Positions 20,120 to 60,222 of a stretch of DNA of 64,000 bases are shown here, piece after piece; the first letter of the stretch is position 1; the number at the start of each line of letters is the position of its first letter. A model generated the notes under the pieces. That model saw only the letters and a list, made by a program, of their open reading frames with translations, had not been told where the DNA came from and made no database searches. The position numbers and the translations under genes are program-made. Source of the stretch: Acidobacteriaceae bacterium (lineage in GTDB: Bacteria > Acidobacteriota > Terriglobia > Terriglobales > Acidobacteriaceae); the NCBI GenBank assembly GCA_025462735.1, contig JAOAPC010000020.1, positions 62,001-126,000 on the forward strand. The letters run 5' to 3'.

Positions 20120-20701
20120 ATGAAGTCCCTTGACGACTATCTCCGCGACGCCGAACAAGCACACGGGCATCTGTGCGCCGGGCAGGTGCTGGGCGTACGC
20201 ATGGCAATGCTCGGTCTTCAGGCGCTAGGGATAGACGATCCTCACGGGAAGGACCGCAAGCGCCTGGTTACATTTGTTGAGATTGACCGTTGCGCCACCG
20301 ATGCCGTCGCGGTTGTAACCGGCTGCCGTCTGGGAAAGCGCGCGCTGAAATTCCGCGACTGGGGCAAAGTCGCAGCAACGTTTGTTGACGTGAGCACCGG
20401 CCGCGCAGTTCGTGTAGCCGCCAAGGAATCGTCAAAGTCCCTCGCGCGTCAGATGCATCCTGAGCTCAGTGACAAGAACAAACAGCAGATGCTGGCGTAT
20501 CGAGAAATTGCGGACGACGACTTGTTCACCACGCAATGGGTGAAGGTTGAACTGCCTCCGGAAGAATTCCCCGGATACAAAGGCGAACGTATTGTCTGCG
20601 ACGTGTGCGGCGAAGGGATCAACTTCCGCCGTGAAATCCGCCGCGACGGCAAAGTGCTATGCCGAAGCTGCGCGGGAGAAAGCTACTACGAGCCGATCTA
20701 A
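20120..20701 (+). CDS. FmdE-family protein
   Basis: Protein of 193 aa resembling the FmdE (formylmethanofuran dehydrogenase subunit E) family. The N-terminal motif AHGHLCAGQVLGVRMA supplies the conserved His and Cys of the FmdE domain, followed by 'TFVEIDRCATDAVAVVTGC'. The C-terminus has a zinc-ribbon-like pair CDVCGEGINF and CRSCAGE. Such proteins are widespread outside methanogens and their substrate is unknown, although redox or molybdenum/tungsten enzyme links are suggested for the family. No other fmd genes are nearby. Confidence 0.85.
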   Translation: MKSLDDYLRDAEQAHGHLCAGQVLGVRMAMLGLQALGIDDPHGKDRKRLVTFVEIDRCATDAVAVVTGCRLGKRALKFRDWGKVAATFVDVSTGRAVRVAAKESSKSLARQMHPELSDKNKQQMLAYREIADDDLFTTQWVKVELPPEEFPGYKGERIVCDVCGEGINFRREIRRDGKVLCRSCAGESYYEPI

Positions 20702-20706
20702 TGTTG

Positions 20707-20773
20707 TACGGGCGTCCTAGCTCTACAAGTGGCAAGAATTGGATTTTGGAGGTACGGGCGTCCTCGCCCGTCC
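20707..20773. repeat. Dispersed palindromic element with half-site match to the thrC insertion
   Basis: TACGGGCGTCCT occurs at 20707 and again at 20753, the second as part of TACGGGCGTCCTCGCCCGTC. The stretch 20744-20773 matches the right arm of the element in threonine synthase (40421-40449) at nearly every position. It fills the gap between the convergent FmdE-like and gatA genes. Confidence 0.75.
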
Positions 20774-20782
20774 ACATTGGGA

Positions 20783-22216
20783 CTACGCAGCTTTGTCGTA
20801 CGCATTCGCCACGCGAAGAATCGTGCTCTCAGCGAAGTGCTTGCCAAAAATCTGCATGCCGATTGGCAGCTTTGCTTTCGTCACGCCGACGGGAATTGAA
20901 ATCCCTGGAATGCCGGCCAGATTTGCTGTCACGGTATAAATGTCCGCCAGATACATCGCCAGCGGGTCATCTACTTTTTCGCCCAGCTTGAATGCTGCCG
21001 TAGGAGTCGTAGGCGCAACGATTGCGTCCACTTTCTTGAACGCCTCTTCGAAATCACGAGTCAGCAGCGTGCGCACGCGCTGGGCTTTTAAATAGTATGC
21101 GTCGTAGTATCCCGCGCTTAGTGCATATGTTCCAAGCATAATGCGGCGCTTTACTTCTGCTCCGAAGCCCTGATCGCGAGTGCGGCGATACATGTTCGAA
21201 AGCGACCGAACATCCTTCGCGCGAAATCCGTAACGTACGCCGTCAAAACGGGCCAGGTTCGATGAAGCCTCGGCGGTTGCAACCAGGTAGTAAGCCGGAA
21301 TCGCATACTTCGTATGCGGAAGCGACACTTCGACGATCTCGCATCCAAGCTTCGCCAGCTTCTGAATCGCGGCCTCTATCGAGCTTCGAAGCTCGGCATC
21401 CAGGCCTTCGCCGAAATATTCTTTGGCAACCCCGACCTTCATTCCCTTGACGGGTTTGTCTAGCTCCGCAACGTAGTCTGGAACTGGAAGCTCGGCGGAA
21501 GTTGAATCCATGGGGTCGCGTCCCGCAATGGTGCGCAACATGATCGCGGCGTCCTTCACGGTCTTCGTCAGTGGCCCAATGTGGTCGAGCGATGATGCGA
21601 ACGCGATCAAGCCGTAACGCGATACCCGCCCGTAAGTTGGCTTTAGGCCAACCACACCGCAAAACGATGCCGGTTGCCGGATCGAACCGCCTGTGTCAGA
21701 CCCTAGCGTCGCAACCGCCATGTCCGCCGCGACTGCTGCCGCCGACCCTCCCGAGGATCCGCCGGGAACCCGGCTCAAATCGCGTGGGTTGTGTACCGGC
21801 TTAAACGCGGAGTTCTCATTCGACGACCCCATTGCAAACTCGTCGCAATTGAGTTTTCCAAGAACCACTGCGCCTGCAGCTTCGAGGCGGGCGACTGCGG
21901 TGCAGTCGTAGGGCGGAACAAAGTTGCCGAGTATTTTCGAGCCGGCGGTGGTGCGGACGCCTTTGGTGATCAGAACGTCTTTGATTCCCACTGGCACGCC
22001 AGCAAGCGGCGGCAAGTTGTCGCCTTTGTTTGCCAGCCGGTCAATTTCTGACGCTTTCTCCAGCCCACGCTCTTTCGAAAGAATCAAGTAAGCGCCGATC
22101 TTCGGATCGTCAGATCCGATTTTCGCGTAGAAAGCCTCAGCTAGCGCGAGGGCGCTAGTTCGGCGCTCGGCGACAGCGGCGCGGGCGGAGTCGATGGTGA
22201 GGCCGGTCAGATCCAT
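20783..22216 (-). CDS. gatA: Glutamyl-tRNA(Gln)/aspartyl-tRNA(Asn) amidotransferase subunit A
   Basis: GatA hydrolyses glutamine to supply ammonia for transamidation of misacylated Glu-tRNA(Gln) or Asp-tRNA(Asn). The amidase-signature triad is intact: Lys79 (GIKDVL), cis-Ser154 ([14 protein letters not shown]) and Ser178 ([11 protein letters not shown]). The length of 477 aa is typical. gatC lies 90 bp upstream on the same strand, but gatB is not in the window. The 90-bp gap carries an inverted repeat, which might separate the two genes' expression. Confidence 0.96.
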
Positions 22217-23946: not shown

Positions 23947-25431
23947 TCACTTCCGCCGCCACCGTACCCCTTCTTTGGTCTGCTCGATAAGTATTCCATT
24001 GGCGGTAAGCTCCGCCCGGATTGCATCCGAAGTGGAGAAGTTCTTGGCGGTTCGCGCCGCATTCATCTGCTCGACTTTCTCATTCACCTGGTCATCCGAC
24101 AACGCGTTGGAGCGTAGAGCCTCGTGTAACTCCGGGCTGATGTCTTTCTCCCGGCCCTCAGACTTGGCCCAGTCCGCGATACGCTGCATTTTCGCGATGT
24201 CATCATCGTTAAGCACCGCGAAGATCTCATCAAACTGATCGAGAGTCGAAAGCAGAGGCGACGTATCCGCCTGCTTCATCTCTCCGGCATCGATGGCGGC
24301 ATTGGCGACACGGACCATATCGAAAAGTGCCGCCTGAGCTTGGGCTGTGTTCAGGTCTTCGCTGAGGGCTTCACGCACGCGCGCGGAAGTTTCGTTCGCC
24401 AACGTCATCAGGCTCAGGTTCGATCCGGCGGGGAAATTTGTCGTCTGCAATCGCAAACGGAAATTGCGCAACCGTTCGACGGACGCCGCCGCTTGCTGCA
24501 GCCCGCCGAAAGTGAAATTGAGCTGGTGGCGATACGGGACCGAACTGAGCAGATATCGAATTGAGGAAGGCTTATGGCCTTTTAGCACCAGGTCGCGCAG
24601 GGTATAAAAATTCCCCAAGCTCTTGGACATCTTTTCGCCTTCGACGAGCAGAAAGCGCGCGTGGAACCAGAACCGCACAAAAGGCTTGCCAGTAGCCGAT
24701 TCCGACTGCGCGATCTCATTTTCATGGTGAGGAAAAATCAGGTCCTCGCCTCCGGCGTGAAGATCGAAACTCTCGCCTAACTCCTCCATCGACATCACCG
24801 AACACTCGATGTGCCAGCCCGGGCGTCCACGCCCGATCCTGCTGTCCCACGAAGTCTCGCCTGGTTTGGGGGCCTTCCAAAGCGCGAAATCGCGGGCACT
24901 GTCTTTCTCGTATTCGTCAACATCGACGCGCGCACCGTCTTCCATCCCGGCGAAGTCTTTCTTCGAGAGCTTGCCGTACTCGGGAAATTTTGCGATGCGG
25001 AAATAGTAAGAACCATCATCCGTGCGATAGGCAAATCCCTTTTCCGCGAGGTTCGCGATGAATTCCGCCATCTCAGGAATGTGGTCGGTCGCGTGGACTA
25101 ATTTAGCCTGCTCAATGTTCAGAGCTCCCGCGTCTTCAAGAAAAGCGTCCTCATACTTCGCGGTGAATTGCTTCAGCGGGACGCCTGCTTGCGCCGCGTT
25201 GCGAATGATCTTGTCGTCCACGTCGGTAATATTCATCACGTGGCGCAAGTTATATCCGCTTTGGCGCAGGAAGCGGTGCAGGATGTCGACCGCAATGAAA
25301 GTCCGGAAATTCCCGATGTGCCCGTAGTCATACACTGTCGGTCCGCAGGCATACATGCGGACTTGGTTGTCCACAAGCGGCCGGAACTCCTCAATCTTGC
25401 CAGAAAGAGTATTGAACAGGCGAAAGGCCAT
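23947..25431 (-). CDS. cysS: Cysteinyl-tRNA synthetase
   Basis: Class I aminoacyl-tRNA synthetase of 494 aa that charges tRNA-Cys. The zinc ligand Cys29 is in MYACGPTVYDYGHIGN, which also holds the HIGH-type signature (HIGN, 38-41). GRPGWHIECS and 'LDLHAGGEDLIFPHHENE'-type zinc and Cys-binding segments follow, with FDLHAGGEDL visible. The KMSKS motif is EKMSKSLGNF. The C-terminal anticodon-binding domain is complete. A 29-bp perfect palindrome lies upstream. Confidence 0.97.
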   Translation of the reverse strand: MAFRLFNTLSGKIEEFRPLVDNQVRMYACGPTVYDYGHIGNFRTFIAVDILHRFLRQSGYNLRHVMNITDVDDKIIRNAAQAGVPLKQFTAKYEDAFLEDAGALNIEQAKLVHATDHIPEMAEFIANLAEKGFAYRTDDGSYYFRIAKFPEYGKLSKKDFAGMEDGARVDVDEYEKDSARDFALWKAPKPGETSWDSRIGRGRPGWHIECSVMSMEELGESFDLHAGGEDLIFPHHENEIAQSESATGKPFVRFWFHARFLLVEGEKMSKSLGNFYTLRDLVLKGHKPSSIRYLLSSVPYRHQLNFTFGGLQQAAASVERLRNFRLRLQTTNFPAGSNLSLMTLANETSARVREALSEDLNTAQAQAALFDMVRVANAAIDAGEMKQADTSPLLSTLDQFDEIFAVLNDDDIAKMQRIADWAKSEGREKDISPELHEALRSNALSDDQVNEKVEQMNAARTAKNFSTSDAIRAELTANGILIEQTKEGVRWRRK

Positions 25432-25494: not shown

Positions 25495-25523
25495 GAGCAG
25501 TGGGTCAAGTTGACCCACTGCTC
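25495..25523. repeat. Perfect 29-bp palindrome upstream of cysS
   Basis: GAGCAGTGGGTCAA is followed by one G and then by its exact reverse complement, giving two 14-base arms. It sits 64-92 bp upstream of the cysS start and 37 bp past the end of the 94-aa gene. No T run follows on either strand, so a dyad operator or palindromic repeat is as likely as a terminator. Confidence 0.85.
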
Positions 25524-40173: not shown

Positions 40174-41451
40174 GTGTCTAGAGTTACTTATCTTGAATGC
40201 ACCAAATGCGGTGCGCATCTCGCTGCCGATATACCACAGAATGTTTGCACGAAAGATGGCGGCATTCTTTTTGCGCGCTATGACCTGAATTCAATTAAGA
40301 CAACATTTACTCCCGACGCTCTCGCAGGCAGGGAAGCCAACCTCTGGCGTTACCGCGAAGTTCTGCCTGAGCTTGAGCCGATTACGCACGGGCGAGGACG
40401 CCCGCCCCTCCAAACAGAGACTTTGGAGAGACGGGCGTCCTCACCCGTCACCTTAGGCGAGGGGTTCACACCGCTGATTCCCAGCCGCGAGTTTCCCCAT
40501 GTCTGGATCAAAGATGAAGGACTGAATCCGACCGGATCATTCAAAGCACGCGGAATTTCTGTTGCCGTCAGTGTCGCGGAAGCCTTAGGCATAAAGAAGG
40601 TTGCCATGCCTTCCGCCGGGAACGCAGGCAGCGCTCTTGCGGCGTACGCAGCCGCTGCAAAGATTGAAGCGCACATCTTTATGCCGCGCGACGTCCCCCT
40701 GGCAAACCGTATCGAGTGCGAAATGTATGGTGCGCACGTGACCCTGGTGAACGGTTTAATCAGCGACTGCGCCCGCATGGTGAGCGATCGCAAGGACAAA
40801 GAAGGATGGTTCGATCTTTCCACGCTCAAAGAGCCGTACCGGGTCGAGGGAAAAAAAACCATGGCGTACGAGTTATTCGAGCAACTTGGCGGCAATCTGC
40901 CCGATGCCGTGATCTTCCCCAGCGGCGGCGGAGTCGGCGTGATCGCGATGTGGAAAGCCTTTGACGAAATGGAAGAACTCGGATGGCTGGGAAAAAAGAG
41001 GAAGCGGCCGCGCATGATCGTAGTTCAGGCCGCGGGATGCGCGCCAATCGTGAAAGCCTGGAATGAAGGCAAAACCACTGTCGAAATGTGGAATCAGAGT
41101 TCCACCATCGCCGCCGGACTCCGCGTCCCTAAACCTTATGGAGATTATCTGGTGCTCGACATTCTCAAGCGCAGCGGAGGCACGGCGATCGCGGTCAGTG
41201 ATGATGAAATCCGAGATTCAGTTCGGCACTGGGCGAGGCACGAAGGCGTTTTTGCTGCGCCCGAAGGAGCGGCCAGTCTCGCGGCCTTTAGAAAATTACG
41301 GTCGGAGTCAGCAGGAAACCCGCCGTTTCTGTCTGAGAAAGATCGAGTCGTGCTATTCAATACCGGAACCGGATTGAAATATCTCGACGTACTTCAAGAG
41401 CGCAAATTGCCCCCTTCGTGGCAGATCGGCGGAATCATAGGGCCGTACTGA
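40174..41451 (+). CDS. thrC: Threonine synthase
   Basis: PLP enzyme of 425 aa that converts O-phosphohomoserine to threonine. An N-terminal zinc-ribbon-like region has CTKCG, the PLP Lys124 is in NPTGSFKARGISV, and the cofactor-binding loop is PSAGNAGSALAAY. The C-terminus has 'VLFNTGTGLKYLD'. An in-frame insertion of about 20 residues (THGRGRPP to RRASSPV, 71-92) is encoded by a palindromic element at 40388-40449 and lies just before the conserved VTLGEGFTPL. The start is GTG 40174 without a strong ribosome-binding site. Confidence 0.92.
   Translation: MSRVTYLECTKCGAHLAADIPQNVCTKDGGILFARYDLNSIKTTFTPDALAGREANLWRYREVLPELEPITHGRGRPPLQTETLERRASSPVTLGEGFTPLIPSREFPHVWIKDEGLNPTGSFKARGISVAVSVAEALGIKKVAMPSAGNAGSALAAYAAAAKIEAHIFMPRDVPLANRIECEMYGAHVTLVNGLISDCARMVSDRKDKEGWFDLSTLKEPYRVEGKKTMAYELFEQLGGNLPDAVIFPSGGGVGVIAMWKAFDEMEELGWLGKKRKRPRMIVVQAAGCAPIVKAWNEGKTTVEMWNQSSTIAAGLRVPKPYGDYLVLDILKRSGGTAIAVSDDEIRDSVRHWARHEGVFAAPEGAASLAAFRKLRSESAGNPPFLSEKDRVVLFNTGTGLKYLDVLQERKLPPSWQIGGIIGPY
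40388..40449. repeat. 62-bp palindromic element inserted in frame in thrC
   Basis: ACGGGCGAGGACGCCCG with adjoining CTCCAAA is mirrored, across a 7-base centre, by TTTGGAG and CGGGCGTCCTCACCCGT. The result is a long hairpin of about 24 paired bases. Insert length keeps the reading frame. Its right half is nearly identical to sequence at 20744-20773. Confidence 0.85.
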
Positions 41452-60190: not shown

Positions 60191-60222
60191 AAAAAAATGG
60201 CGTGCTCGGTTACGAGCACGCC
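60191..60222 (-). terminator. Rho-independent terminator of the Oar-like gene
   Basis: GGCGTGCTCG and CGAGCACGCC form a perfect 10-bp stem with a 4-base loop. On the minus strand it is followed after one base by seven T residues. It terminates the receptor gene that reads leftward from 63665. Confidence 0.92.

Follow-up and report, generated by a model that had tools for sequence, protein, structure and literature searches.

Most repetitive extragenic palindromes (REPs), not all of them, fall into the GTAG and CGTC superfamilies described by Di Nocera and colleagues, and members of both have also been found within open reading frames (ORFs) (PMC3733652). According to the passages of that survey drawn on here, there are earlier reports of intragenic REPs that keep the frame, from Opitutus terrae, Rickettsia and further bacteria, the GTAG type mostly in O. 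terrae, including its DNA ligase, and the CGTC type mostly in R. conorii; dimers and groups account for over half of the intragenic inserts and encode 20-30 residues, two inverted units with inward tags being termed a tail-to-tail dimer; the genes hit are often DNA repair genes; and REPs are linked to RAYT/Y1-type transposases (PMC3733652). For Acidobacteriota, REPs have been tabulated in three genomes, and the words 'intragenic' and 'in-frame' have no occurrence in the parts of that source drawn on here (PMC12306157). Our search of the literature found no report of intragenic REPs in Acidobacteriota, which is a weak negative, subscription papers being poorly covered. Here we present a REP dimer within the threonine synthase gene thrC, located in a window of 64 kb (the whole stretch of DNA analysed) of a 4.36-Mb draft genome with 24 contigs and 97% completeness.

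The protein encoded by thrC matches PF00291 in Pfam with 6.5e-72, and its score of 542.5 bits against the NCBIfam threonine synthase equivalog PRK08197 is well above the cut-off of 303. The insert lies directly upstream of the conserved VTLGEGFTP segment, and the reading frame runs unbroken through it over all 425 codons. It is a REP dimer, that is, a repetitive extragenic palindrome in two inverted copies (Table 1), and is free of stops in all three forward frames and in one of the three reverse frames. The borders of the insert are ambiguous by about 9 nt because its left flank, CCGATTAC, resembles its right flank, CCCGTCAC, and either could be the native Pro-(Ile/Val)-Thr codons, and the placement given in Table 1 is one of several possible. 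As for a target-site duplication, which is a criterion for MITEs, the two flanks around the hairpin are identical at 5 of 8 positions, a likeness that may reflect a decayed duplication or chance. As single-stranded DNA, the stretch 40384-40454 folds with -25.2 kcal/mol against a mean of -10.0 for shuffled sequences (z -7.6), and none of 200 shuffles is as good. In an AlphaFold2 model of the protein, built with 28 sequences, the mean pLDDT is 88.8 and values below 50 occur in runs at residues 72-88 and in the final 15 residues, nowhere else; from this model, most of the 22-residue insert looks like a disordered, floppy loop on a confident enzyme core. The original prediction of a palindromic element lying in frame within threonine synthase is thus borne out by the two inverted cores, the fold, the open frame and the equivalog match, and the insert of '62 bp, about 20 residues' that it described is real, with a size that turns out slightly larger, at 66 nt and 22 residues; its identification as a REP dimer, and the published precedents, go beyond that prediction.

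Table 1. Features of the thrC locus and related REP copies (single positions refer to the window; C11 and C12 positions refer to the genome)
Feature	Position	Strand	Description	Basis
thrC, threonine synthase	40174-41451	+	425 aa, PALP family	open frame, PF00291, PRK08197
Insert in thrC	40386-40451	+	66 nt = 22 codons	protein alignment, DNA alignment with six relatives
REP unit a	40386-40412	+	about 27 nt; exact core 40388-40404, then CTCCA tag 40408-40412	
REP unit b, inverted	40424-40450	-	about 27 nt; TGGAG tag 40424-40428; core 40432-40448 with one mismatch	
Inner hairpin CTCCAAA...TTTGGAG	40408-40428	+	formed by two inward-facing tags (tail-to-tail dimer)	DNA fold, dimer arrangement
Second REP copy in window	20744-20773	-	exact core 20755-20771; between two convergent ORFs	
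Tag-inward pair, thrC copy			61 nt core to core	
Tag-inward pair	C11:26253		61 nt	
Tag-inward pair	C12:101867		62 nt	
Tag-inward pair	C11:435224		65 nt	
Tag-inward pair	C12:307291		84 nt	

Within the window, the 17-nt core pattern is found at 4 places when up to 3 mismatches are allowed, against 0.34 expected. The second copy lies between the ORFs 20120-20701 (+) and 20783-22216 (-), and it agrees with the right arm of the thrC insert at 25 of 30 positions without gaps, with the 17-nt core exact, so the likeness of the right arm to this non-coding sequence, as first proposed, holds. Beside it, at 20709-20730, stands what appears to be a decayed half-copy of the same REP. Another of the four matches, 24820-24836 with 2 mismatches, is within cysS, and is taken as a native look-alike and no REP because its residues fall in a motif conserved in cysteinyl-tRNA synthetases; GC-rich coding motifs are evidently able to mimic the REP core. 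Perfect hairpins also stand in the window at 25498-25520 and 60199-60222; both have stems of 9 bp or more, and neither is related to the thrC REP family.

On the whole genome, the exact 17-nt core has 40 copies while the reversed control pattern has 0, and with up to 3 mismatches the numbers are 178 and 35. From these 178 near matches we examined a set of 102 cores in 81 clusters, which takes in every one of the 80 places with at most 1 mismatch and, from a list of 20 places with 2 mismatches, the 14 that were fetched, plus chance additions of 3 cores with 2 mismatches and 5 with 3. The logo of the main family, family A, reads N-ACGGGCG-AGGA-CGCCCGT-N'-n-CTCCA, or on the opposite strand a TGGAG tag followed by the hairpin. 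The unit of about 27 nt is a short palindrome within the 20-40 nt taken for REPs, with many dispersed copies, and its 27-nt consensus contains no stop in any of the six frames. A second group of 20 copies, family B, has GAGGGC in the core and often carries the tag CCACA instead, and 9 of the 102 cores belong to neither family. No published GTAG or CGTC tag is found beside the hairpin; the conserved tag here is TGGAG/CTCCA, standing in the place of a GTAG-1 tag with two spacer bases. At one pair of the stem, -1/18 (N-N' in the logo), 60 of 73 copies of family A show Watson-Crick pairing against 26.8 expected from the make-up of the columns, as do 19 of 20 copies of family B against 7.8 expected. 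Since in family A this pair varies through all four Watson-Crick types, it is the hairpin itself, beyond its letters, that is maintained by selection or by the copying process. Movement of the family as a dimer is not well supported, because 63 of the 81 clusters are single cores and tag-inward pairs of 61-84 nt number 5, the thrC copy included. As to its distribution, 11 of 61 genomes carry the exact core. Within the genus it is present in 6 of 8 genomes and in the rest of the taxonomic family in 5 of 29, and none of the 24 genomes outside that family has it.

The threonine synthases of relatives show the insert to be private to this species among those compared. A search for thrC over the 61 genomes returned the locus of the window and 29 more, 30 in all. 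Of the 29, five belong to the genus itself (G001, G002, G004, G005 and G006), whereas its members G003 and G007 have weak matches only and no close orthologue. The 22 extra residues are missing from all 29 aligned proteins, and the gap at DNA level against six relatives is 66 nt. In 80 further, more distant loci, 71 of which were parsed and 9 not, the stretch from WRY to LGEG has 14-17 residues in 71 of 71 parsed cases, against 36 here. The best-scoring named relatives of thrC in a public collection are Acidobacteriota, several of them labelled Terriglobia, which suggests that phylum and class for the present genome. We infer that the empty site seen in the relatives is the older state. Counted over 398 codons, amino-acid changes private to one species number 11 in the insert-bearing one, and 17, 21 and 21 in G001, G002 and G004; protein changes are not in excess in the insert-bearing lineage, for a count which includes the changes made before the insertion. 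Against the nearest relative, G001, dN is 0.085 and dS about 1.8, and because dS is saturated the age of the insertion is unbounded. The original prediction, which took the element for a dispersed one and not for an ancient loop, and which named a loop shared by all related threonine synthases as the outcome that would speak against it, is upheld by the 29 empty sites, five of them in the same genus, and by the 40 exact cores with none in the control.

We then consider the REP copies inside other genes of this genome. A cluster was counted as lying in an ORF if that ORF has 150 codons or more and reaches 30 nt or further beyond the cluster at both ends; 38 of the 81 clusters do so and 43 lie in no such ORF. 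For 30 of the 38 clusters, one ORF each was submitted to Pfam, with 8 clusters omitted, and 24 of the 30 ORFs have a Pfam family. Overall, 18 of 81 clusters are judged to lie inside real genes, the repeats thereby being mostly outside genes as is usual for REPs. The genes concerned are an ABC transporter, ligA, a fused E1/transketolase-type dehydrogenase, mtaB, selA and recG, then gatB, gyrB, dgt, mutS2, lipB and ispE, and finally an M56 peptidase, fabG, a ribonucleotide reductase, metG, metH and thrC itself, where the acceptance of gyrB rests on a weak core with 3 mismatches. Six of the 24 were dropped: cysS, a transglycosylase and a Crp-type regulator, whose cores with 2-3 mismatches we regard as look-alikes of native origin; a Cys/Met PLP enzyme, in which the REP copy precedes the domain; and SCO1 and a CoA-transferase, with REP copies at most 13 residues from the start. 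The copy count thus finds the family both in and out of genes, and the earlier proposal that it can enter coding DNA while keeping frame is supported by these 18 clusters.

For 15 of the 18 genes, from 19 stretches prepared, we aligned the proteins with those of G001-G004, with two to four species for each gene and some pieces partial, and by eye the length at the site of the REP peptide differs between species in all 15. In recG, selA, mutS2, the ABC transporter and ligA, the corresponding loop of relatives holds different peptides that also look REP-derived; therefore, as far as sequences can tell, the same loops seem to have been filled repeatedly. The gatB gene differs from those of G001 and G002 by 27 nt, the length of one unit, and because the loop is equally long with a similar peptide in G003 and G004, the insertion in gatB would be either older or repeated. 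In the ribonucleotide reductase (L098 1337-3100, -), the extra peptides VGAALQARP, GSGARATH and GRASSPG are seen, apparently derived from different repeat families. A preference of the REP for one reading frame was also considered: the frame giving peptides of the TGEDAR/TGVLAR type is used in 13 of the 18 genes (by eye, with one third expected; p 0.0009), in the genes of relatives in 6 of 15 copies (p 0.38), and when pooled in 19 of 33, where p is 0.0036 for cases that are not independent. The idea was dropped on account of the result in relatives and this lack of independence.

The same search was extended to relatives, where 61 of 79 exact core places were fetched and 30 of these 61 lie within ORFs of at least 150 codons. 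Among 20 REP-bearing ORFs submitted, 11 have a Pfam family, and alignments show length-variable loops at the REP in TsaD, a PmbA/TldD-type protein, a glycosyltransferase, a SIS-domain protein and an epimerase. In two species of the genus, REP-like peptides also occupy one loop of a protein (L359, L361) that matches no Pfam family at 1e-5 and has the look of an ImuB/Y-family polymerase. The suggestion that the repeat could create new protein loops accordingly gains support at the level of sequence, from length-variable REP-like peptides in the genus, and is consistent with the low confidence of the predicted structure over the thrC insert.

It is also of interest to find the transposase that moves these repeats. 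The genome has 12 matches to the Y1_Tnp profile, which is also positive in 5 of 14 control genomes. Together with one more Y1-like ORF, 13 loci were checked for nearby cores and hairpins, and among them none is a Y1 transposase tied to the thrC REP family. Similar hairpins stand on both sides at 8 of the 13 loci, as judged by eye in a hairpin scan without shuffle control. The flanking hairpins vary with the Y1 gene, for example GGCACGACT/AGTCGTGCC and GCCCGGCAT/ATGCCGGG (L031-L038, L160-L170), and because they differ from gene to gene, several families of REPs or TIRs apparently coexist in this genome. One candidate is the Y1 gene G000:C5:183348-183860, where a related hairpin with the CTCCA tag stands on one side, some 90 nt downstream of the gene. 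It failed as the transposase of the thrC family in a test of co-occurrence, with relatives (E <= 1e-20) in 5 of 11 core-bearing genomes against 19 of 50 core-free ones. A gene on C17 with an adjoining REP cluster was dropped as a REPtron, the flanks of the gene itself being a different hairpin, GGCACGACT...AGTCGTGCC. The sister family B, for its part, flanks the Y1-like ORF C3:42712-43290 (L164 2713-3291), which was recognised by eye from its HVHLLL segment and has no Pfam match at 1e-3. This ORF contains a family-B REP in frame within itself, so that family B appears to have inserted into the gene of its own transposase.

Taking these results together, we hold it very probable that the insert is a REP dimer from the dispersed family, that a copy entered thrC after the split from the nearest relatives compared, and that it persists there as a tolerated in-frame linker loop. 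Established in this are the dispersal of the family, the maintenance of the hairpin, the empty sites, the open frame, the lack of excess protein change in the lineage and the copies of the family in other core genes. A Y1 (RAYT-type) transposase acting in trans would most likely have moved the copy as a single-stranded hairpin, which is inferred because the genome has 12 Y1_Tnp matches, hairpins flank 8 of 13 Y1-type loci, and the REP literature links such elements to such enzymes. Landing after the lineage had parted from those relatives, the copy could survive with a length that is a multiple of three and a frame in use that is free of stops, at a site which is the linker just upstream of the PLP-binding domain, where a loop of 22 residues would be tolerated. 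More generally, copies landing in harmless loops of genes with a length divisible by three would be kept and others lost, and the loop in thrC would be functionally neutral.

The strong DNA fold, with its z of -7.6, could also suit another purpose, in which the hairpin is retained in thrC for regulation, the mRNA fold altering the speed of translation or the decay of the message and the peptide being a by-product; REPs have indeed been proposed as RNA elements in passages of the survey (PMC3733652). This we consider unlikely, as the thrC dimer already has one mismatch in a core, the insert is private to one species among the 30 compared, and the Rfam scan of the window, which gives two tRNAs, has no match at the thrC hairpin. 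It is very improbable that the hairpin stays untranslated, with ribosome hopping or RNA processing giving a normal protein: hairpins can in principle be bypassed, but bypass needs neither an open frame nor a length that is a multiple of three, and the insert has both, and other core genes are likewise open through their REP copies.

We give an equally small chance to an artefact of the draft assembly, for which the 24 contigs and 97% completeness might speak, repeats being a known trouble for assemblers. Against this, the copy is internal to a contig of 225 kb, lies in frame, has an inner spacer of its own, and other genomes of the genus carry in-frame copies too. Least tenable of all, to the point of being practically dismissed, is an old native loop with a chance likeness to the repeat. 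The similar flanks CCGATTAC/CCCGTCAC blur the borders in its favour, but the insert is missing in 29 of 29 relatives, empty sites that already contradict it, and two inverted units with the family tag meet at one site, whereas the reversed control has no exact match genome-wide.

Beyond this locus, REP families may, as a tentative and rather doubtful extension, be a continuing source of new protein loops in the genus, with a unit suited to gene entry, loops of core enzymes being refilled and some of the peptides perhaps kept for use. The TGGAG tag lacks the TAG stop that is present in the usual GTAG tag. The thrC insert gives a clean case of before and after, in which selfish-looking DNA adds residues to a core enzyme and close relatives have empty sites, and with REP hits in a number of core genes the genus makes the question of whether mobile palindromes create new loops a testable one. 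It is also a warning for annotators, since in these genomes a loop of variable length that contains a peptide such as TGEDAR, GRGRPS, RRASSPV or GTGVLAR probably derives from a REP.

Among the known systems, one is found in Koribacter versatilis, which belongs to the same phylum. Its TIRYT genes are likewise Y1 transposase genes flanked by inverted repeats, but they are three genes with one repeated TIR family, and intragenic copies go unmentioned in the passages concerned (PMC3733652). The Rickettsia palindromic elements (RPE) also place palindromic DNA in frame within unrelated protein genes, according to passages of two sources (PMC10969869, PMC3733652); compared by length only, they are about 150 bp (PMC10969869) against 66 nt for the thrC insert, in which two REPs of about 27 nt each are combined. 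The intragenic REPs of Opitutus terrae and other genomes are closer, with single and dimer REPs in the ORFs of core genes, DNA ligase included, as described in the same survey (PMC3733652); they differ in phylum and tag, while here there are empty sites within the same genus and differing REP-like peptides. The GTAG REP/REPIN-RAYT system shares with the present family a short, tagged, GC-rich hairpin, built as tag, two spacer bases, stem and 4-nt loop, which is dispersed both singly and as inverted dimers, and in both the genome is rich in Y1_Tnp genes. It differs in the tag, which here is TGGAG (CTCCA on the other strand) and not GTAG, in the sizeable share of copies that lie here in coding DNA, and in that none of the 13 Y1-type loci checked here could be assigned as the cognate transposase. 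The phenomenon itself is known already; what is new, so far as we have searched, is the lineage, the TGGAG tag, the empty sites within the same genus and the apparently repeated filling of the same loops.
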